Source: Nitrospirota bacterium
GTDB lineage: Bacteria > Nitrospirota > Leptospirillia > Leptospirillales > Leptospirillaceae
Reading direction: 5' to 3'
DNA: 64,000 nt
Assembly: GCA_021801345.1 (NCBI GenBank)
Contig: JAJYYA010000003.1
Coordinates: 1 to 64,000, forward strand
The position numbers were made by a program, and so were the translations under genes. The number at the start of each line of letters is the position of its first letter. The stretch's first letter is position 1. The notes below the pieces were generated by a model. The model did not search any database. It was not told the origin of the DNA and saw nothing but the letters and a program-made list of their open reading frames with translations. Of the stretch, positions 14,973 to 23,666 are shown in pieces.

Positions 14973-15644
14973 ATGGCCCCCCACACACATCTCCTTTTGA
15001 ACAGACTTGTCGGCTTTCTCGGAAGCGCCCTTCTCCTCTCCTCCTTTGCCATGCTCTCGATGCGGCGGATGTCCTCGCTCGTCAGGATCTTCGCCCTTCA
15101 GGGGCTCCTTCTGACCCTGGGCACCCTCTCGGTCGCAATCGTTGCAGGAGAGCCCCACCTTCTCTTTTCAGCCCTCTTCACCTTTATCTTCAAAGTTCTC
15201 GTTCTTCCGATCATCCTCTTCCGCCTCCTCGAACGTCTTCGAATCCGGGGAGAGGTCGAGGTGCTGCTCAACGTTCCGACGACCATGGTCGTGGGGCTTT
15301 TCGTGGTGGTCTTTTCCTTTGCCCTGGCCTCTCCCATCTCCGAGCTCGCCAGCACCGTCTCCCGCGGACTCATCGGGGTCGGCCTCGCGGCCCTCCTGCT
15401 TTCATTTCTTATGATGATCACCCGCAAGAAGGCGATTACCCAGGTTTTGGGATTTCTTGGGATGGAAAACGCCCTTTTCTTTTCGGCGATCAACGCCACC
15501 TATGGCATGCCCATGGTTGTGGAGCTGGGGGTCGCCTTCGATGTTCTCGTCGGGACATTCGTCTTCGGGATCTTCTTTTTCCAGATCCGGGAGACCTTTG
15601 AAAGCTTCGACTTAAAACACATGGACAACACCCAGACGGAGTGA
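14973..15644 (+). CDS. hyfE: Hydrogenase-4-like membrane subunit E
   Basis: A 223-residue membrane protein of six or seven helices, with LVRIFALQGLLLTLGTLSVAI near the start and the conserved QVLGFLGMENALFFSAI helix typical of HyfE. HyfE resembles NuoK-like small subunits fused in tandem and forms part of the proton-translocating arm. ATG 14973 lies two bases past the hyfC stop, with GAGG about six bases before it. The end overlaps the hyfF GTG (GTGA), consistent with one operon. Confidence 0.87.
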   Translation: MAPHTHLLLNRLVGFLGSALLLSSFAMLSMRRMSSLVRIFALQGLLLTLGTLSVAIVAGEPHLLFSALFTFIFKVLVLPIILFRLLERLRIRGEVEVLLNVPTTMVVGLFVVVFSFALASPISELASTVSRGLIGVGLAALLLSFLMMITRKKAITQVLGFLGMENALFFSAINATYGMPMVVELGVAFDVLVGTFVFGIFFFQIRETFESFDLKHMDNTQTE

Positions 15645-17119
15645 CCGTGGCCCTCGTATCCCTGATCCTTTCCCCGCTGGCCGGAGCCCTTGTCCTGGCC
15701 TTTTGGGGACACAAGAAGGTCGCCCCCGCCCTCAACATTCTCTTCTCCCTTCTGACCTTCGCCCTCTCGATACTTCTGGCCGACGAGGTCTACCGGAGCG
15801 GACCCCGGCTCGCGCTCGACGAACAGCTCTTCTCGGACGGGCTCTCCTCTCTCTTCCTCGTCGTCACCGGAGGGGTCGCGGCCACGACCTCCTTCTTCTC
15901 CTTTCGTTACATGGCCATCGAGGCGGCACACGGCCATCTCTCTCCGGAGAGGTCCCGGCTCTACCTTGCCCTCTACCAGGTTTTTGTTCTGGCGATGATC
16001 GTCGTCCTGGCCAGCAACAATCTCGGTCTTCTCTGGGTTGCCCTCGAGGGGGCAACGCTTGCGACCGTCCTTCTCGTGGGGTGGTCCCGCACCCCCTCGG
16101 CCATCAAGGCGTCCTGGAAGTACTTTATTCTTTGCGGCGTCGGCATCGCACAGGCGCTCTTCGGAACCATACTTCTTTACTTCGCCTCCGAGAAAACTCT
16201 CGGCCCGGGCGGTACGGCCCTTCTCTGGACGCATCTTGCGATGGTCAAGTCCCAGCTCGAGCCTACCGTCATCGGGCTAGCCTTTGTCTTTTTCGTCGTC
16301 GGCTACGGAACGAAGGTTGGACTGGTTCCTCTACACAACTGGCTCCCGGACGCCCATGCCGAAGGGCCCACCCCCATCTCCGCCGTCCTCTCCGGTCTTC
16401 TTCTGAATGTGGCTCTCTACGCCATCCTCCGGGTCAAGGTGCTGGCCGACGGAGCGCTTCACAGCGCCATGCCCTCCCGCCTTCTCATCGGATTCGGTCT
16501 GGTCACCCTCCTTCTGGCCTCGATCTCGATGTGGAAACGCCAGGACATCAAACGGCTCTTCGCCTACTCCTCCATCGAGCACATGGGGATTGCCACCTTG
16601 GCGTTCGGGATCGGCGGACCCCTCGCCACCTTCGCCGGCCTTCTTCATATGACCGCCCACAGCCTTGTGAAATCGGCGATATTTTTTGTGGTGGGGCACA
16701 TTGTCCAAACCTCCGGATCGCAGAAGATCCTTTCGATCCGGGAGGTGGCTGCCCGGACTCCTGGGCTTTCCCGGGCTCTCCTGGCCGGCGGCTTCGCGAT
16801 CACCGGCCTGCCCCCCTTCGCCCTCTTCGCCAGCGAGTTCCTGATCGTCTCCGAGGCGGCACGCCGCGCCCCCTATACTGTCCCTTTCTTGCTTTTTGCG
16901 CTCTTTGTCACCTTCGGGATCATTCTTTTCAGGATTCTCGAGATGAACGGAGGGGGACCGCCTCTTGAGAGCCCGGTGCTCCCGTCCCCCCCGCTGACCT
17001 TCTTTCCGGTCTGGATCCACCTGGGGGTCGCTCTTGTTATGGGCCTTTTCTTTCCTGCGCTTCTTGCATCCGTTTACCAAAAAGCCCTTCTTTCCCTCGG
17101 GCCGCTTTATGGAGGGTGA
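15641..17119 (+). CDS. hyfF: Hydrogenase-4-like membrane subunit F (NuoN/L-type)
   Basis: A second antiporter-like subunit of 492 residues. Core motifs are LLWVALEGATLATVLLVGW with the conserved Glu, GYGTKVGLVPLHNWLPDAHAEGPTPISAVLSG with the conserved Lys, SSIEHMGIATLAFG and HSLVKSAIFFVVGHI. These match HyfF and the NuoM/N superfamily, each predicted to move one proton. GTG 15641 overlaps the hyfE TGA. With hyfB this gives two antiporter-type pumps in the complex. No hyfD is present between E and F. Confidence 0.9.
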   Translation: MTVALVSLILSPLAGALVLAFWGHKKVAPALNILFSLLTFALSILLADEVYRSGPRLALDEQLFSDGLSSLFLVVTGGVAATTSFFSFRYMAIEAAHGHLSPERSRLYLALYQVFVLAMIVVLASNNLGLLWVALEGATLATVLLVGWSRTPSAIKASWKYFILCGVGIAQALFGTILLYFASEKTLGPGGTALLWTHLAMVKSQLEPTVIGLAFVFFVVGYGTKVGLVPLHNWLPDAHAEGPTPISAVLSGLLLNVALYAILRVKVLADGALHSAMPSRLLIGFGLVTLLLASISMWKRQDIKRLFAYSSIEHMGIATLAFGIGGPLATFAGLLHMTAHSLVKSAIFFVVGHIVQTSGSQKILSIREVAARTPGLSRALLAGGFAITGLPPFALFASEFLIVSEAARRAPYTVPFLLFALFVTFGIILFRILEMNGGGPPLESPVLPSPPLTFFPVWIHLGVALVMGLFFPALLASVYQKALLSLGPLYGG

Positions 17120-17120
17120 T

Positions 17121-18668
17121 GTGAACGAACGGCCATTCGATGAGGGAGGTCTCTGTCTCATTCCCTCGGAGGAGGGGATTCCCCGGGCGCTCCTTCCCCT
17201 CGACCTTCCTGAGAACTACCTGAGGGAGGCCCGATTTTTGAAGAGTTCCGGAGCCCGTCTCAAAGGAATCTGGGGCGCCACGTCAGAGACCCCCTCTCTT
17301 TATGCCGCCTTCCTTCTGAAGGAGGGGCTCGTCGTTCTCTCCCTCTCTCTCGCGCGTTCTACCCTTTCCTTCCCGTCTCTTTCAGGACTCTTCCCTGCGG
17401 CCGGGCGCTTCGAACGGACGGTGCGGGATCTCTTCGGATTCCGACCTGAAGGGCTTTCCGATCTTCGTCTTCAGACAAACCATGGACTCTGGGCCCGCCC
17501 GCCCCTTTCTGATCCCGACAATCCTCTTGCTTCTGATTCCCCTTCCTCCCCCCCGGAAAACTATCCCTTCGTTCGGGTCTCGGGCGAGGGGGTGCACGAG
17601 ATTCCAGTGGGACCAGTCCATGCCGGCATTATTGAACCCGGACATTTCCGATTTTCCGTTGTGGGGGAAAAGGTCCTCCGACTCGAAACCCGAATGGGCT
17701 ACACCCACAAGGGAATCGCCTCTCTCTTTCACGGGAGGAGTCTTGCGGAGGGGGCGAGACTCGCCTCTCGCATTTCGGGCGATTCTGCGGTGGCCTGCAG
17801 TCTGGTTTTTTCCCAGGCAGTCGAACAGGCGGCAGGAATCGCGCCTTCCGAAGGGAGCCGATTCGTTCGGGCGATTCTTCTCGAGAGGGAGCGCATTGCC
17901 AACCACCTCGGAGACCTTGGCGCTCTGGGAAATGATGCCGGTCTTGGGGCGGCCCTCTCCCTTTTTAGCCGCCTTCGAGAGAGACTGCACCGCACCAGTC
18001 TCACTGTTTTTGGCCACCGTCTTCTCTTTGATACCATAGTCCCCGGGGGCGTCTCCGCATCCCTTTCCGCATCGGCAATCGGACACCTCCTCGGGGAGTG
18101 CGACGATCTCACCCGGGAGATCTCTCAACTCGAGAGAATCTACGCCGACCATGGAGGGCTTCAGGATCGCTTCCAGAATACGGGAATCCTCCTTCCCGAA
18201 GTGGCTCATCTCTATGGGGTCGGCGGGGTCGCAGGACGGGCCAGCGGACAGGCCTTTGACGCCAGGGTCGACCACCGGGGCGATCCCACCCACCGTTTTG
18301 CCCCCGCGCTTTCCCTTGACCATACAGGCGATGTGGCCGCACGGGTCCGGATCCGATTTCTCGAAATTTTCGAGTCCCTGATCTTTACCCGCTCCCTTCT
18401 CCTTCACCTTCCCGAGCCCCCCCTCTCCATGGCTCTCCCGGATGCACCCGAGCCCCGGGAAGGGTGCGCCCTCGTCGAAGGTTTCCGGGGCGAGGTCATC
18501 GGATGGGTCCGTCTCCTTCAGGGAGAAGTCCTTGAGTCGGTCCATATCCAGGATCCTTCTCCCCTTCTCTGGCATGCGCTGGAGGCTGCGACGCCGGGGA
18601 ATCTCGTCGCGGACTTTCCCCTGATCAACAAGTCCTTCAACCCGAGCTACAGCGGAACCGACCTCTAG
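17121..18668 (+). CDS. hyfG: Hydrogenase-4-like large subunit G (NuoCD-like) lacking NiFe ligands
   Basis: A soluble large subunit of 515 residues: a NuoC-like region (about 1-125, ending VRDLFGF) fused to a NuoD-like region starting near residue 150 (VHEIPVGPVHAGIIEPGHFRF). In NiFe hydrogenases two CxxC motifs hold nickel. Here the first site reads RISGDSAVACS (residues 218-227) and the last reads SFNPSYSGTDL at the C-terminus, so the cysteines are replaced, mostly by Ser. It therefore cannot bind a standard NiFe centre and resembles NuoD in that respect. GTG 17121 follows GGAGGG by four bases; ATG 17109 is also in frame. Confidence 0.9.
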   Translation: MNERPFDEGGLCLIPSEEGIPRALLPLDLPENYLREARFLKSSGARLKGIWGATSETPSLYAAFLLKEGLVVLSLSLARSTLSFPSLSGLFPAAGRFERTVRDLFGFRPEGLSDLRLQTNHGLWARPPLSDPDNPLASDSPSSPPENYPFVRVSGEGVHEIPVGPVHAGIIEPGHFRFSVVGEKVLRLETRMGYTHKGIASLFHGRSLAEGARLASRISGDSAVACSLVFSQAVEQAAGIAPSEGSRFVRAILLERERIANHLGDLGALGNDAGLGAALSLFSRLRERLHRTSLTVFGHRLLFDTIVPGGVSASLSASAIGHLLGECDDLTREISQLERIYADHGGLQDRFQNTGILLPEVAHLYGVGGVAGRASGQAFDARVDHRGDPTHRFAPALSLDHTGDVAARVRIRFLEIFESLIFTRSLLLHLPEPPLSMALPDAPEPREGCALVEGFRGEVIGWVRLLQGEVLESVHIQDPSPLLWHALEAATPGNLVADFPLINKSFNPSYSGTDL

Positions 18669-18676
18669 GAGCCCCT

Positions 18677-19168
18677 ATGTGGAAACTTCTCTGGAAGATA
18701 CTGAAAACGGGCAATCTTACGGAGGCACAGAAAACAGACCCCGGATGCGCCACTCCTTCCGAGTATCGACACAGCGCCGCCATCCGCCATCTCGACGCCG
18801 GCTCCTGCAACGGCTGTGAGCTTGAGCTCTCGGCTCTTGAGAATCCCGTCGTCTCTCTTGGAAGCCGGGGTCTCTCCTTCGTGGCCTCTCCCCGCCACGC
18901 CGATATTCTTCTTGTCACCGGCCCGGTCACCTGCCATATGCGAGAGGCGCTTGAAATCACATCGGAGGCCATGCCTTCCCCAAAGCGGACCGTTGCCGTC
19001 GGGGACTGCGCAAAAGACGGCGGGATTTTTCGTGGAAGCTATGCCGTCTTGGACGGTCTCCCTCAGGTCATGGAGGTCGATGTCTTCGTTCCCGGATGCC
19101 CCCCCAAACCTGAGGAGATCGTCGAAGGCCTCCTCCGGGCCTTTGCCGAAAAGAAACAGACTACCTGA
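18677..19168 (+). CDS. hyfI: Hydrogenase-4-like small subunit I (NuoB-like, 4Fe-4S)
   Basis: A 163-residue iron-sulfur subunit equivalent to NuoB/HycG. The four cluster ligands of the N2-type centre are intact: C44 and C47 in GSCNGCELE, C111 in VGDCAKDGG and C141 in PGCPPKPEE. This is the terminal electron relay next to the large subunit. ATG 18677 has AGGAG upstream and follows hyfG by eight bases. Because this cluster is kept while the NiFe ligands in HyfG are lost, the complex probably remains an electron-transfer device. No polyferredoxin (hyfA/hyfH) or NADH-binding gene is in the window. Confidence 0.92.
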   Translation: MWKLLWKILKTGNLTEAQKTDPGCATPSEYRHSAAIRHLDAGSCNGCELELSALENPVVSLGSRGLSFVASPRHADILLVTGPVTCHMREALEITSEAMPSPKRTVAVGDCAKDGGIFRGSYAVLDGLPQVMEVDVFVPGCPPKPEEIVEGLLRAFAEKKQTT

Positions 19169-19355
19169 ACGATGTGCGTATTTTCGTTGTGTCCTGTCCC
19201 TCCGACATTCCTTATTTTCAAGCGGCTTGATTTGGTGCCGATCCCCCCTTACCATAGAAGAAGGTGCAGAGAAGACCGGGGGAATGACTTTTTCCCCTGC
19301 GATGTTCGGCCTCCTCTTTCCCGGATCAGTCCACCCCCCACAAAGCGAGACGACA

Positions 19356-19955
19356 ATGCCTCCAGCTTCAGAGATCTCTCACGATATCAAGTCCATCGCA
19401 CATCTTGTCCTGTCCTCGGAAAGACCTTTTTTGATGGTGGGATCCTCCACCTGTTGGGGTTGGAATGACACAGACGATACCCGACTGACCCTTATTGCCC
19501 GCCTTGAGGAGAATCTTCCAGGACTGTTCCGCACGCATGTTCCCGACGGGACACCCCTCGAAAGCCTCACCTTTTCTCCAGGACTCTCCATCCTGGCAGG
19601 CATTCCCAGACCCCGTCTGGAGGCCCTACTTGACCATCTCGACAAAATCCGGGACTCTTGCGGAAAAATCATTGTATACGACAATTTCGGCCTCACGCCC
19701 CGAAGAGGACACATCCACCTCGAGGCGCGAACCACGAGCTTTCTGGACGAACTTCTCGACACGATCGAGTTTATTCACGAGAAAAAGACCCTCGTTCCCT
19801 GGGGATTGACTCCCGAAGGACGCGCCTACAGAGAGAGCCTGAGAAGCTCTCCCGAAAAACGTCCCGACTGGAAATGGGACGAGACGAGAGCCGTCAATAT
19901 TCCGGAGGAGTTTCGCCACGATCTCGCCGCCGGACTTGACGAGCATGCGGAATAG
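19356..19955 (+). CDS. Protein of unknown function between the hyf and oxidoreductase operons
   Basis: About 199 residues from ATG 19356, or 223 from ATG 19284; neither start has a strong Shine-Dalgarno sequence. It has no signal peptide or membrane helix. Visible features include a Cys-Trp-Gly-Trp segment (GSSTCWGWNDTDDTRL), ARLEENLPGLFRTHVPDGTPLESLTF, an IIVYDNFGLTPRRGHIHLEART strand-loop region and an acidic C-terminus. I do not recognise a family. It lies about 190 bases after hyfI on the same strand and upstream of the oxidoreductase promoter, so it may belong to either system or to neither. Confidence 0.65.
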   Translation: MPPASEISHDIKSIAHLVLSSERPFLMVGSSTCWGWNDTDDTRLTLIARLEENLPGLFRTHVPDGTPLESLTFSPGLSILAGIPRPRLEALLDHLDKIRDSCGKIIVYDNFGLTPRRGHIHLEARTTSFLDELLDTIEFIHEKKTLVPWGLTPEGRAYRESLRSSPEKRPDWKWDETRAVNIPEEFRHDLAAGLDEHAE

Positions 19956-20098
19956 GGACCGCTGAATCTCCGGACCTTTATCCCCATCGCTCCCCAAAGA
20001 CAATTATCTGGAATGCTTTGCCTTTTTTTAAAGCACTTATGAAGCCTGACCGGCAGCTTTTTCCCCAGATTTTTCCGGTCGCATGCTCACGAGAGAGT

Positions 20099-20131
20099 TT
20101 GACTTGACTAAAGAACTGGTGATAGTGTATT
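20099..20131 (+). promoter_or_regulatory. Promoter candidate for the 2-oxoacid:ferredoxin oxidoreductase operon
   Basis: TTGACT at 20099-20104 and GATAGT at 20121-20126 are 16 bases apart. A second, overlapping TTGACT at 20104-20109 pairs with TGTATT at 20126-20131, also 16 apart. Transcription from here would give a leader of roughly 275 bases before the first gene. Confidence 0.5.
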
Positions 20132-20170
20132 CGGACGCTGGATCATAGTTGATTGCAGACCGCATTCATT

Positions 20171-20300
20171 GCGCGGGCTCGTTTTCGGTGCCCCACCGGG
20201 AACATCGTCGTCCGGAGCGTGCAAACGGTTGGTGGAAGTCAGCCATAAGAGGCCAACCGCAACACGGGACAACCGGACGAGCTCATCAGAGGGCCGCTCC
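20171..20300 (+). ncRNA. Candidate structured leader or small RNA upstream of the oxidoreductase genes
   Basis: Nested complementary segments form a rod. The outer stem is 20173-20180 with 20291-20297 (one bulge). A local hairpin CGGTG/CACCG lies at 20186-20198. An 8-bp perfect stem TCGTCCGG (20208-20215) pairs with CCGGACGA (20273-20280). GTG/CAC pairs at 20219-20221 and 20263-20265. A 7-bp terminal stem CGGTTGG (20226-20232) pairs with CCAACCG (20253-20259), leaving a 20-base loop. No credible open frame uses the region. It may be a cis-acting leader or an independent RNA with a 6S-like rod shape. It matches no riboswitch consensus that I recall. Confidence 0.4.
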
Positions 20301-20307
20301 AAGCTTT

Positions 20308-20340
20308 CTCGGGCCTTCTGGGGGCTCGGGCCTTCTGGGG
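20308..20340 (+). repeat. Tandem 16-base repeat in the leader
   Basis: The word ctcgggccttctgggg occurs at 20308-20323 and again at 20325-20340, a 17-base period, directly after the structured element. Confidence 0.8.
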
Positions 20341-20413
20341 AAATAAGTGAAAGTGTTTCGCACGTTTCTTCATTTTTTCATTACCGACCATCTTCCATAT
20401 CAAGGAGTCATTA

Positions 20414-21658
20414 ATGTCTGATTCGGCAGGAGTCAAGGACGTCCAGGCAGGAAAAGCCGCCGAGACAAAGAGTGCGGGCGATATCGAGCTGTCTGCGGGA
20501 GATCGCCAGAAGATCGTTACTCCTGAATACATGTTCTTCGAAGCTCCCCGCGAAAGGGCCTTCATCACAGGCTCTGAAGCCGCAAAGGAGGCCATTCGCC
20601 GCTCCAACGTGGACGTCGCCATCTCCTACCCGATCACTCCCCAGAGCGAGACCATGCAGCAGGTGGGCTCCCTCTGGGCCGAAGGATATGTCAAGGAATA
20701 CTTTCGCGGGGAAGAAGAAATCGGCGTGATGTCAGCCATTGCCGGATCTTCTCGCGCAGGAGCCCGCTCAATGACCGCGACCGCAGGACCTGGCCTTATG
20801 CGCGGAATGGAGGTCATTGCCTCATGGCCCGGAGGTCGCATTCCAGCCGTCCTCCTTATCATGTGCCGCGTGGTCAACGCCCCTCTCGCCATTCAGCCCG
20901 ATAACGTCGAGCTCGCCTACCTCCTCAACTGCGGTATCATCCTTTTCCACGGTGAAAACCAGCAGGACTTTTTCGACTACACCATGAAGGCTTTCATCAT
21001 TTCCGAGCGCCCCGAGGTCACGCTTCCTGTGGCCGTGGCTGTCGACGGATTCTTCGTCACGCACGCCCGCGGATATGTCAGCATGCCCTCAAAGGACATC
21101 AAGCTTCCGCCCAGAGATCCCTACGCCGAAGCCGTGCCGACGATGGACAACGAGAATCCTCCGGCCCGCCTCTCCCGTGACGCGCCGATCCAGAAGAGCA
21201 ACTTCATCAGCTACCAGGTCCACGCCTCTTGGCAGCAGGAGGTTTGGGCCGCCAACGAACGCTCTCGCCGGTACATCGAAAAGTACATGGGCGGGCTCAT
21301 CGAAGTCATCAATCCCGATGCCGAGGTCATGCTGATCGCCTCCGGGAGCGCCGTATCCCAGTCGCGCGAAGCTGTTCGCCAGGCGGAGGAAGAACACAAC
21401 ACGAAGATTGGCCTTATCAAGGTTCGCTCTCTCCGTCCGTTCCCGACTCCCGAGCTTCGCGCTGCCTGCAAGCACGCAAAGCGGATCATCGTCCCCGAGT
21501 TCAACTATATGGGATGGCTGCATCGGGAGATCGTCACCGCCCTCTACGGGTACTCGAAGGCGGAGATCGTTCCCGGACCCAGGGTGTACGGAGGGATGTC
21601 CATGCCGACCGAGATGATCCTCCAGACGATCTTCCCGAACAAGAAGTTCGTGTTCTAG
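20414..21658 (+). CDS. porA: 2-oxoacid:ferredoxin oxidoreductase, alpha subunit
   Basis: A 414-residue alpha subunit of a pyruvate- or 2-oxoglutarate:ferredoxin oxidoreductase, which reversibly links ferredoxin oxidation to reductive carboxylation of an acyl-CoA. The family entry SYPITPQSETMQQVG and the segment RGEEEIGVMSAIAGSSRAGARSMTATAGPG are clear, and the C-terminal FNYMGWLHREIVTALYG fits domain II. An N-terminal extension of about 40 residues precedes the fold. AAGGAG is seven bases before the ATG. It is the first gene of an alpha-beta-gamma-delta operon resembling the multi-subunit For/Por enzymes of Hydrogenobacter. Pyruvate versus oxoglutarate specificity cannot be read from the sequence. 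Confidence 0.93.
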   Translation: MSDSAGVKDVQAGKAAETKSAGDIELSAGDRQKIVTPEYMFFEAPRERAFITGSEAAKEAIRRSNVDVAISYPITPQSETMQQVGSLWAEGYVKEYFRGEEEIGVMSAIAGSSRAGARSMTATAGPGLMRGMEVIASWPGGRIPAVLLIMCRVVNAPLAIQPDNVELAYLLNCGIILFHGENQQDFFDYTMKAFIISERPEVTLPVAVAVDGFFVTHARGYVSMPSKDIKLPPRDPYAEAVPTMDNENPPARLSRDAPIQKSNFISYQVHASWQQEVWAANERSRRYIEKYMGGLIEVINPDAEVMLIASGSAVSQSREAVRQAEEEHNTKIGLIKVRSLRPFPTPELRAACKHAKRIIVPEFNYMGWLHREIVTALYGYSKAEIVPGPRVYGGMSMPTEMILQTIFPNKKFVF

Positions 21659-21737: not shown

Positions 21738-22604
21738 ATGAGTTTGAAAAATATGACGATTACTCCCGGCTGGGAGAAGTACATGACCAAGGAATACATC
21801 GACCTCGTCGAGCGCGGACCCTATGGGAAGCAGAAGAAGGTCTCGGAGATGGGCTCCTTCAAGGAGGTTCTCGAAGAACACCCCATGTGCGCGGGCTGTG
21901 CCATGACCCTCTTTATTCGTCTGACCATGGTCGGTCTTCCCAACCCCGAACACACCATTCTTATCGGAACGGCCGGTTGCGGACGTCTCGCCCTGACCCA
22001 GACATCGATTCCCTTCATCTACGGAAACTACGGGGATACCAACGCCGTCGCCTCCGGTCTCAAGCGCGGCCTTGAAGTTCGATTCAAGGACCAGGCGAAG
22101 GATGTCGTTGTCATGGCCGGAGACGGCGGACTGGCCGACATCGGCTTCAGCGCGGTCATGCATTCCTGGTTTCGCAAGGAGCGCTTCACCACCATCATGC
22201 TCGACAACGAGGTCTACGGAAACACCGGCGGGCAGGAGAGCGGCATGACCGAACGCGGTGCACTCCTTAAGATGGCCCCCAAGGGAAAGCTTTTCGACAA
22301 GATGGACATGATGGGACTGGCCCAGACCTCGGGAGTTGCCTACATCGCCCGGCTGACACCAACCAACCCCACCCGGGTGGCTTCCGTTGTCCGGAAGGCC
22401 GTCATGATTGCTCGTGAAGTGGGGCCGACTTTCATCCAGGCCTACACCTCTTGCAACATCGAGTATGCCATTCCGACTCCCAAAGTTCTCGACGATGCCC
22501 GTGACATCGAATCCAAGCGCTACGGATTTATGGAGATCATCTCCGACGAAGCCAAGGCCTACCTTGACTCTATCGACACGGCAAAGAAGGCCAAGAAGGA
22601 GTAA
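21738..22604 (+). CDS. porB: 2-oxoacid:ferredoxin oxidoreductase, beta subunit (TPP-binding)
   Basis: A 288-residue subunit that binds thiamine diphosphate and one 4Fe-4S cluster. The cluster cysteines are visible in HPMCAGCAMTL, TAGCGR and the late TSCNIEYA. The TPP/Mg motif reads VMAGDGGLADIGF followed by MLDNEVYGNTGGQ. This is the catalytic core where CO2 is added to or removed from the hydroxyethyl-TPP intermediate. It lies 79 bases after the alpha gene, with GGAG shortly before the ATG. Confidence 0.94.
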   Translation: MSLKNMTITPGWEKYMTKEYIDLVERGPYGKQKKVSEMGSFKEVLEEHPMCAGCAMTLFIRLTMVGLPNPEHTILIGTAGCGRLALTQTSIPFIYGNYGDTNAVASGLKRGLEVRFKDQAKDVVVMAGDGGLADIGFSAVMHSWFRKERFTTIMLDNEVYGNTGGQESGMTERGALLKMAPKGKLFDKMDMMGLAQTSGVAYIARLTPTNPTRVASVVRKAVMIAREVGPTFIQAYTSCNIEYAIPTPKVLDDARDIESKRYGFMEIISDEAKAYLDSIDTAKKAKKE

Positions 22605-22663: not shown

Positions 22664-23359
22664 ATGCAACTCAAGCGTTACAACATCCGTATGGCCGGCA
22701 TCGGAGGACAGGGCGTCGTGACCGCGTCCCACATCCTGAGCAACGGCATGGTCATCAACGGTGGCGAGAGCACCCTCGTTCCCTTTTTTGGCTCGGAAAA
22801 GCGTATGGCCCCCGTTGAATCCTATGTTCGTATCGCCATAGACAAGATTTATGAGATCGGCGAGATCATCTACCCCAACGTTATCATGATTTTCCACCCC
22901 CAGGTGATTACCCACGGCAAGTCCTACACGATGCCGTTCTACTCCGGTCTCAAGCAGAAGGGCGTCGTGCTGATCAATTCTGACACGCCGATCCCCCTGC
23001 AGCCCGATGAGGTGCGCGAGCTTAAGGAGAGAGAGGCCCGCATTCATTATCTTCCTGCGACTACGATGGCCCGCGAGGTCGGAGGAACGGATTTGGCCAC
23101 AAATATGGCCATGGTGGGTGCTATCGCCTCCATCCTTGGGATCCCCACAATGGAGTCTCTTGAACAGTCCGTCCGCGAGCGCTTTCTCGGAAAGGGCTTC
23201 GTGGTCTCGGGAGGAACGGCGGCTCTCGACAATGTCATCGAGAAGAAGTTTGCCAAAAAGGAGCAGCTTCTCAAGAGCAACATGGCCGTCATCTCCGCCG
23301 CATACCAATATGCCCAGGATCACGGCTGGGCCGCAAAGTCCCAGAAGGCCCCTGTCTGA
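22664..23359 (+). CDS. porG: 2-oxoacid:ferredoxin oxidoreductase, gamma subunit
   Basis: A 231-residue gamma subunit with the family start RMAGIGGQGVVTASHIL and the FFGSEKRMAPVESYVRI segment. This domain contacts coenzyme A in related enzymes. The C-terminus extends with a helical KKFAKKEQLLKSN segment. GGAG lies before ATG 22664, 59 bases after the beta gene. Confidence 0.92.
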   Translation: MQLKRYNIRMAGIGGQGVVTASHILSNGMVINGGESTLVPFFGSEKRMAPVESYVRIAIDKIYEIGEIIYPNVIMIFHPQVITHGKSYTMPFYSGLKQKGVVLINSDTPIPLQPDEVRELKEREARIHYLPATTMAREVGGTDLATNMAMVGAIASILGIPTMESLEQSVRERFLGKGFVVSGGTAALDNVIEKKFAKKEQLLKSNMAVISAAYQYAQDHGWAAKSQKAPV

Positions 23360-23381: not shown

Positions 23382-23666
23382 TTGTATCTTGTCGCCCATA
23401 TCGACCAAGCCATTTGTAGCGAGACCGCCTGCCGTCTCTGCACCCAGTATTGCCCCGAGGCGAATACCATTCTCTACGACAATGCCGCAAAGACGGCTTT
23501 TGTCGCAGTCGATCGCTGCAAGGGATGCGAGATCTGCGTCGGAATCTGCGACGACCTCGCCAAACATCATGCCATCAAGATGATTATGATCACCGATCTT
23601 CAGGACACCTTCGAGCTTTCAAAGGAGGGCTTTCGCCCCGAAACATGGACGGGCAAACATCCCTGA
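23382..23666 (+). CDS. porD: 2-oxoacid:ferredoxin oxidoreductase, delta subunit (2x[4Fe-4S])
   Basis: A 94-residue ferredoxin-like subunit. The first cluster motif is CSETACRLCTQYCPE (one wider gap than the textbook C-x2-C-x2-C-x3-C) and the second is CKGCEICVGIC. It relays electrons between the TPP site and external ferredoxin. The start is TTG 23382, with AAAGGAG about eight bases upstream. It is the last gene of the operon before a terminator. No separate epsilon (forE) gene follows. Confidence 0.9.
   Translation: MYLVAHIDQAICSETACRLCTQYCPEANTILYDNAAKTAFVAVDRCKGCEICVGICDDLAKHHAIKMIMITDLQDTFELSKEGFRPETWTGKHP

Follow-up and report, generated by a model that had tools for sequence, protein, structure and literature searches.

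Little is known of how carbon fixation is regulated in iron-oxidising bioleaching bacteria. In a genome of the Leptospirillaceae (Nitrospirota; assembly GCA_021801345.1), a long stretch of DNA between a promoter and a ferredoxin-dependent oxidoreductase operon can be folded into a rod of nested helices, which raises the question of whether this leader is a new structured RNA or an ordinary long 5' untranslated region (UTR). The window referred to below is the whole stretch of DNA that was analysed, 64,000 nucleotides of contig JAJYYA010000003.1 (positions 1 to 64,000, forward strand). An earlier sequence-only reading had described a rod, loosely resembling 6S RNA, and had suggested either a cis-regulator tied to redox or carbon status or an independent small RNA. 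Our answer is that the rod-bearing leader probably belongs with ordinary long leaders and does not represent a new RNA class: the rod, striking in one genome, drops out once one close relative is aligned. What is left are two conserved ends, for which a cis-regulatory role is possible.

The por operon and the genomes compared

The leader region (20099-20414) is bounded on one side by a gene that ends at 19955 and on the other by the start codon of the oxidoreductase operon, the genes of which are as follows.

20414..21658, + strand, 2-oxoacid:ferredoxin oxidoreductase alpha subunit (PF01855, 1.4e-57; PF17147)
21738..22604, + strand, beta subunit, TPP-binding (PF02775, 3.5e-18; PorB-like models)
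22664..23359, + strand, gamma subunit (TIGR02175, 8.6e-31, over the cut-off)
23382..23666, + strand, delta-type ferredoxin subunit, weak (TIGR02179, 2.7e-8, below the cut-off)

These genes form a porABGD-type 2-oxoacid:ferredoxin oxidoreductase operon for a carbon-fixing pyruvate:ferredoxin oxidoreductase. Directly upstream, at 15641-19168, lies a hydrogenase-4/complex-I-like cluster with a HyfF-like antiporter subunit and NuoC/D-like and NuoB-like subunits; ferredoxin from the por enzyme could plausibly have it as a partner. The frame just 5' of the leader (19293-19955) has no Pfam or NCBIfam match. The leader sequence is present as a single copy in its own genome, which rules out a dispersed repeat.

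Seventeen further genomes in the family supplied the regions upstream of the orthologous alpha gene (79-97% protein identity) for comparison, and these were sorted by leader type into clades. Clade A comprises the window and L047, the one close relative with the window's leader type; clade B consists of L048, L050, L051 and L052, clade C of seven genomes, and clades D, E and F are three groups from other genera. The C-terminal GLDE(H/N)AE of the frame upstream of the leader is kept in clade C right up to the promoter.

The promoter and the predicted start of the leader

20099..20104, + strand, -35 element TTGACT, kept in 18/18 orthologous upstream regions compared
20123..20128, + strand, -10 element TAGTGT after an 18-nt spacer; its TA...T aligns with TATCTT in other genera
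20134..20136, + strand, predicted transcription start, inferred from the -10 element

Scanning the + strand of a 1.5-kb stretch for promoters gave a single site, TTGACT/GATAGT at 20099-20126. A TA...T follows TTGACT by 18 nt in all orthologous upstream regions except L055 (strict pattern), and because this spacing is common to the relatives we assign the -10 element to 20123-20128, which puts the start near 20134-20136. The promoter-like pair that had been read at 20099-20131 is present, the comparison with the 17 relatives moving its -10 element (GATAGT in that reading) by 2. Judged by its elements, the conserved promoter at 20099-20128 is of the sigma-70 type.

Searches of the literature did not turn up a transcript map for Leptospirillum. 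For L. ferriphilum, a study by RT-PCR (PMC2607301) obtained products across the 207-nt for-por region and saw no evident terminator in it, so the region before por is transcribed in that species, where the upstream gene differs from that in the window. The earlier description of a long leader before the oxidoreductase operon is well supported by comparison: wherever the upstream region of a relative is readable, a promoter and a long leader (161-373 nt in all relatives) are found.

The rod in the window and its loss in the closest relative

20171..20348, + strand, variable middle containing the rod (59% identity and 29 gap columns against the nearest relative)
20177-20182/20277-20282, + strand, outer 6-bp helix of the rod, seen in the sequence
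~20180-20202, + strand, side hairpin, in the minimum-energy fold
20208-20215/20273-20280, + strand, 8-bp helix of the rod, TCGTCCGG/CCGGACGA, perfect pairing
20226-20232/20253-20259, + strand, 7-bp hairpin stem CGGTTGG/CCAACCG, perfect pairing
20308-20323 and 20325-20340, + strand, 16-nt tandem repeat CTCGGGCCTTCTGGGG, two exact copies, seen in the sequence

All parts of the rod that had been described (the nested perfect 8-bp and 7-bp helices, the outer helix and the side hairpin) are present in the window sequence, as are both copies of the repeat. The 8-bp Watson-Crick helix alone occurs in 22% of dinucleotide shuffles, the nested 8+7 helix pair in 2.8%, and the 16-nt repeat in 0/1000. The folding energy of 20138-20345 is only mildly low (z -1.9; 9/200 shuffles as good). 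For the whole window leader z is -2.6, and among 18 leaders it ranges from -2.6 to +0.9 with a mean of about -0.85. The assertion that the leader holds no coding frame is borne out: it contains no ATG, and although TTG-started frames of 65 and 81 aa exist, a 26-nt deletion in L047 puts both out of frame.

Drift was gauged on L047 itself, which has 97% protein identity to the window and is 71% identical to it at four-fold degenerate codon sites. Against this yardstick, positions 20134-20170 are 92% identical (P = 0.002 against four-fold sites) and positions 20349-20413 are identical at 63/65 (97%; P = 6e-8), whereas the middle, 20171-20348, falls below the four-fold sites, at 59% with 29 gap columns. 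Within the middle, a core at 20196-20238 is weakly conserved (84%, P = 0.04). One 26-nt gap in L047 (window 20273-20298) takes away the entire 3' arm of both the 8-bp helix and the outer helix, and L047 also lacks the tandem repeat. The 7-bp stem reads CGGCCGG/CCGACCG in L047, with 6/7 pairs kept, one compensatory change and one pair broken. Alignment between clades succeeds at the promoter, over the first ~15-40 nt and at the Shine-Dalgarno (SD) region; the rest of the leader sequence is not kept. The best motif common to different clades, GTCCGGAGCGTGCA (window 20210-20223) against GTCCGGAGTGTGCA (L057/L058, another genus), scored no higher than in shuffles.

Consensus folds tell the same. 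RNAalifold consensus energies gave no signal beyond column-shuffled alignments in any of four groupings (z -0.1 for the window with L047, -1.5 for clade B, -1.0 for clade C and -0.2 for A+B), with structure conservation indices of 0.13-0.43. No covarying conserved structure was found in the middle among the few close relatives aligned, and pair-preserving changes are confined to a 21-nt hairpin at the 5' end. Because the 3' arm is lost in L047 and the consensus folds do not exceed shuffles, the rod is probably a property of one sequence, that is, a lineage-specific fold of a spacer and not a conserved ligand- or protein-binding RNA; its reading as a conserved RNA does not survive the comparison, since a lack of covariation and weak conservation among relatives are the very outcomes that the earlier reading had named as refuting it. 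A structure specific to the window and L047 may nevertheless exist in the middle, since a single close relative has the window's leader type and the 7-bp stem keeps 6/7 pairs.

Two local structures were seen in other clades. In clade B, a long-range closing helix, GCUGAUUG with CAAUC-AGC, is kept around a variable middle of ~190 nt. In clade C (e.g., L095:2930-2975), the por start codon is preceded at ~45 nt by a terminator-like hairpin, UGUCGG..CCGGCA, with a U-run after it; the hairpin is kept by wobble changes and is absent from the window.

These findings bear on the possibility that the leader is a cis-acting regulatory RNA (a riboswitch, a protein-binding leader or an attenuator) that controls por in response to redox or carbon status and has a structure too diverged for the alignments. 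The mildly low folding energy in the window, the weakly conserved core, and the clade B helix and clade C hairpin speak for it. We consider it distinctly unlikely, as the main arm of the rod is lost in the closest relative, no consensus fold exceeds shuffles across or within clades, and the window leader has neither a terminator nor a conserved upstream frame nor an ATG, to which the lack of an Rfam match described below is added.

The conserved 5' hairpin

20138..20158, + strand, 5' hairpin CTGGATCA-TAGT-TGATTGCAG with one bulged G, 8/8 pairs in 6 species

This hairpin lies 2-4 nt from the predicted 5' end, the start being inferred from the -10 element. In the six genomes of clades A and B the first 25 nt form it and all eight pairs are kept, through three pair-preserving changes: G-U to G-C and U-A to U-G (both by wobble) and C-G to A-U (a double change). 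The pairs preserved by wobble favour an RNA helix, which tolerates such changes, over a DNA operator palindrome. The covariation score over both helices tested was reached by 33/500 shuffles, and the support amounts to essentially one set of changes between clades A and B, with one double change. The hairpin is weak or absent in clades C-F.

A simpler account holds that the leader is a plain long 5' UTR in which only the promoter and the ribosome-binding region matter, the 5' hairpin being due to chance or to promoter or initially transcribed DNA, which might act as a repressor operator directly behind the start. It gains from the absence of the hairpin outside clades A and B and from a middle that changes faster than silent sites. 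In the same genome, a frame follows some other TTGACTT promoters at a distance of 250-480 nt as well, and long leaders are widespread, bacterial mRNAs commonly having a long structured 5' UTR (PMC3936740). We judge this account rather unlikely: hairpin pairs are preserved through wobble changes, a long leader is found in every relative despite its sequence not being kept, and conservation at the 3' end extends well beyond the SD sequence (63/65).

The 3' block and the Shine-Dalgarno hairpin

20349..20413, + strand, conserved 3' block, a pyrimidine-rich tract and the SD region, 63/65 identical to L047
20386..20409, + strand, SD-sequestering hairpin GAC-CA-UCUU...AGGA-GUC, core present in clades A and B, variant form in clade C
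20402..20407, + strand, Shine-Dalgarno AAGGAG, seen in the sequence and conserved

In the window, the 45 nt before the SD sequence are 73% pyrimidine, against 47% upstream, and clades A and B have 69-78% pyrimidine over these 45 nt; in clade C the figure is 58-73%. In stability the SD hairpin hardly exceeds shuffles (about 1 sd), and its wider stem is broken outside the core between clades A and B.

Known RNA families and small RNAs

Searching 19950-20450 with the Rfam 15 covariance models matched no family, even at E<=10, in agreement with the earlier failure to recognise a riboswitch or an RNase P, SRP or tmRNA consensus. Known riboswitch and cis-regulatory families were rejected on this ground, with no match at the gathering score and none at E<=10. 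A leader-peptide attenuator was likewise rejected: the leader has no ATG, no terminator and no conserved upstream frame. In the literature, a search for an RNA motif upstream of ferredoxin oxidoreductases yielded work on the Moco riboswitch only.

The likeness to 6S RNA fares no better. The leader has no RF00013 match, and the genome's only 6S candidate, at full length, lies elsewhere (G000:C69:121145-121329, locus L121; 41.2 bits, E 6e-7, against a gathering score of 46.4). 6S RNA was rejected also on structure, a conserved rod with a large central bubble not being found: L047 lacks the arm, and the consensus fold equals shuffles. More generally, an independent small RNA, 6S-like or otherwise, might start at 20134 and end before 20345, and the leader's own promoter and rod-like fold would suit it. 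Such an RNA is most improbable here, for no terminator-like site was found on the + strand at 20345-20414, where the 3' end of the rod would call for an intrinsic terminator; the RNA body is not conserved; and conservation continues through the SD sequence into porA. The 6S candidate elsewhere in the genome counts against it as well.

The leader of the second oxidoreductase operon

The genome has a second, paralogous 2-oxoacid:ferredoxin oxidoreductase (OFOR) operon (G000:C22, about 17200-17503, minus strand; L110, L125), probably of the 2-oxoglutarate type by analogy with the Leptospirillum operon literature. It has a TTGACTTGAC (TTGACTT) promoter and a ~290-nt leader, which is long in nearly all relatives. 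In clade A this leader and that of G010 share 91% identity (78% at four-fold sites), and the consensus fold of the leader scores better than shuffled alignments (z -3.0, SCI 0.82); in clade C the consensus fold has a z of -2.2. A terminator-like hairpin changes from AAAAATGG/CCATTTTT to AAAAAGGG/CCCCTTTT between two species, in a compensatory manner. No Rfam family matched. From these alignments, the second OFOR leader appears to be a better structured-RNA candidate than the por leader.

The two leaders are alike in having a TTGACTT promoter and a long leader before paralogous enzyme operons, and differ in that the second is much better conserved and has the better consensus fold. This better structural support in a sister operon, likewise with a long leader, is a further point for a cis-regulatory RNA before por. 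It is very unlikely that the two leaders share a regulatory task (e.g., redox or carbon control) by means of ends that are conserved and a middle that is rewired quickly; if they did, they would make up a new lineage-specific leader class on both ferredoxin-dependent CO2-fixing operons of the family.

A probable long 5' UTR with two conserved ends, and its known analogues

We favour, by a modest measure, the reading of 20134-20413 as the long 5' UTR of the por operon mRNA, with a stabilising hairpin at its 5' end, then a spacer that evolves fast, and finally a module for translation initiation. The 5'-terminal hairpin would make the mRNA less prone to 5'-end-dependent decay (by RppH/RNase E or RNase J); in other bacteria, mRNAs are stabilised by 5' hairpins, which hinder 5' conversion (PMC3997798), and the genome encodes both families of 5'-end-sensitive RNases (RNase E/G, 344 bits; RNase J, 563 bits). 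The middle of the leader would serve as a spacer, the unstructured pyrimidine tract may be a landing site for the ribosome (S1), and the weak SD hairpin may set the translation rate. The outcome would be a long-lived mRNA with tuned translation for a heavily used CO2-fixing enzyme. If the conserved ends do set the stability and translation of the por mRNA, they would be points at which carbon fixation through the reductive TCA cycle is controlled.

Three kinds of known system invite comparison. The leader resembles 6S RNA (RF00013) in its predicted rod-like fold of about 200 nt, and differs from it in lacking a covariance-model match, in standing directly before a gene and in the presence of a separate 6S candidate in the genome. 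With the riboswitches and cis-regulatory leaders of Rfam 15 it shares a place between a promoter and a metabolic operon, whereas it matches no family and has no conserved core fold. The 5' UTR of E. coli ompA is of the type that carries a 5'-terminal stabilising stem-loop. Long 5' UTRs with such a stem-loop (PMC3997798) are like the por leader in being long, in the hairpin (predicted for por to lie 2-4 nt from the 5' end), in the pyrimidine-rich stretch before the SD sequence and in a host with RNase E/G and RNase J; the por leader differs from the ompA type in being about twice as long and in having a hairpin that is not kept family-wide.
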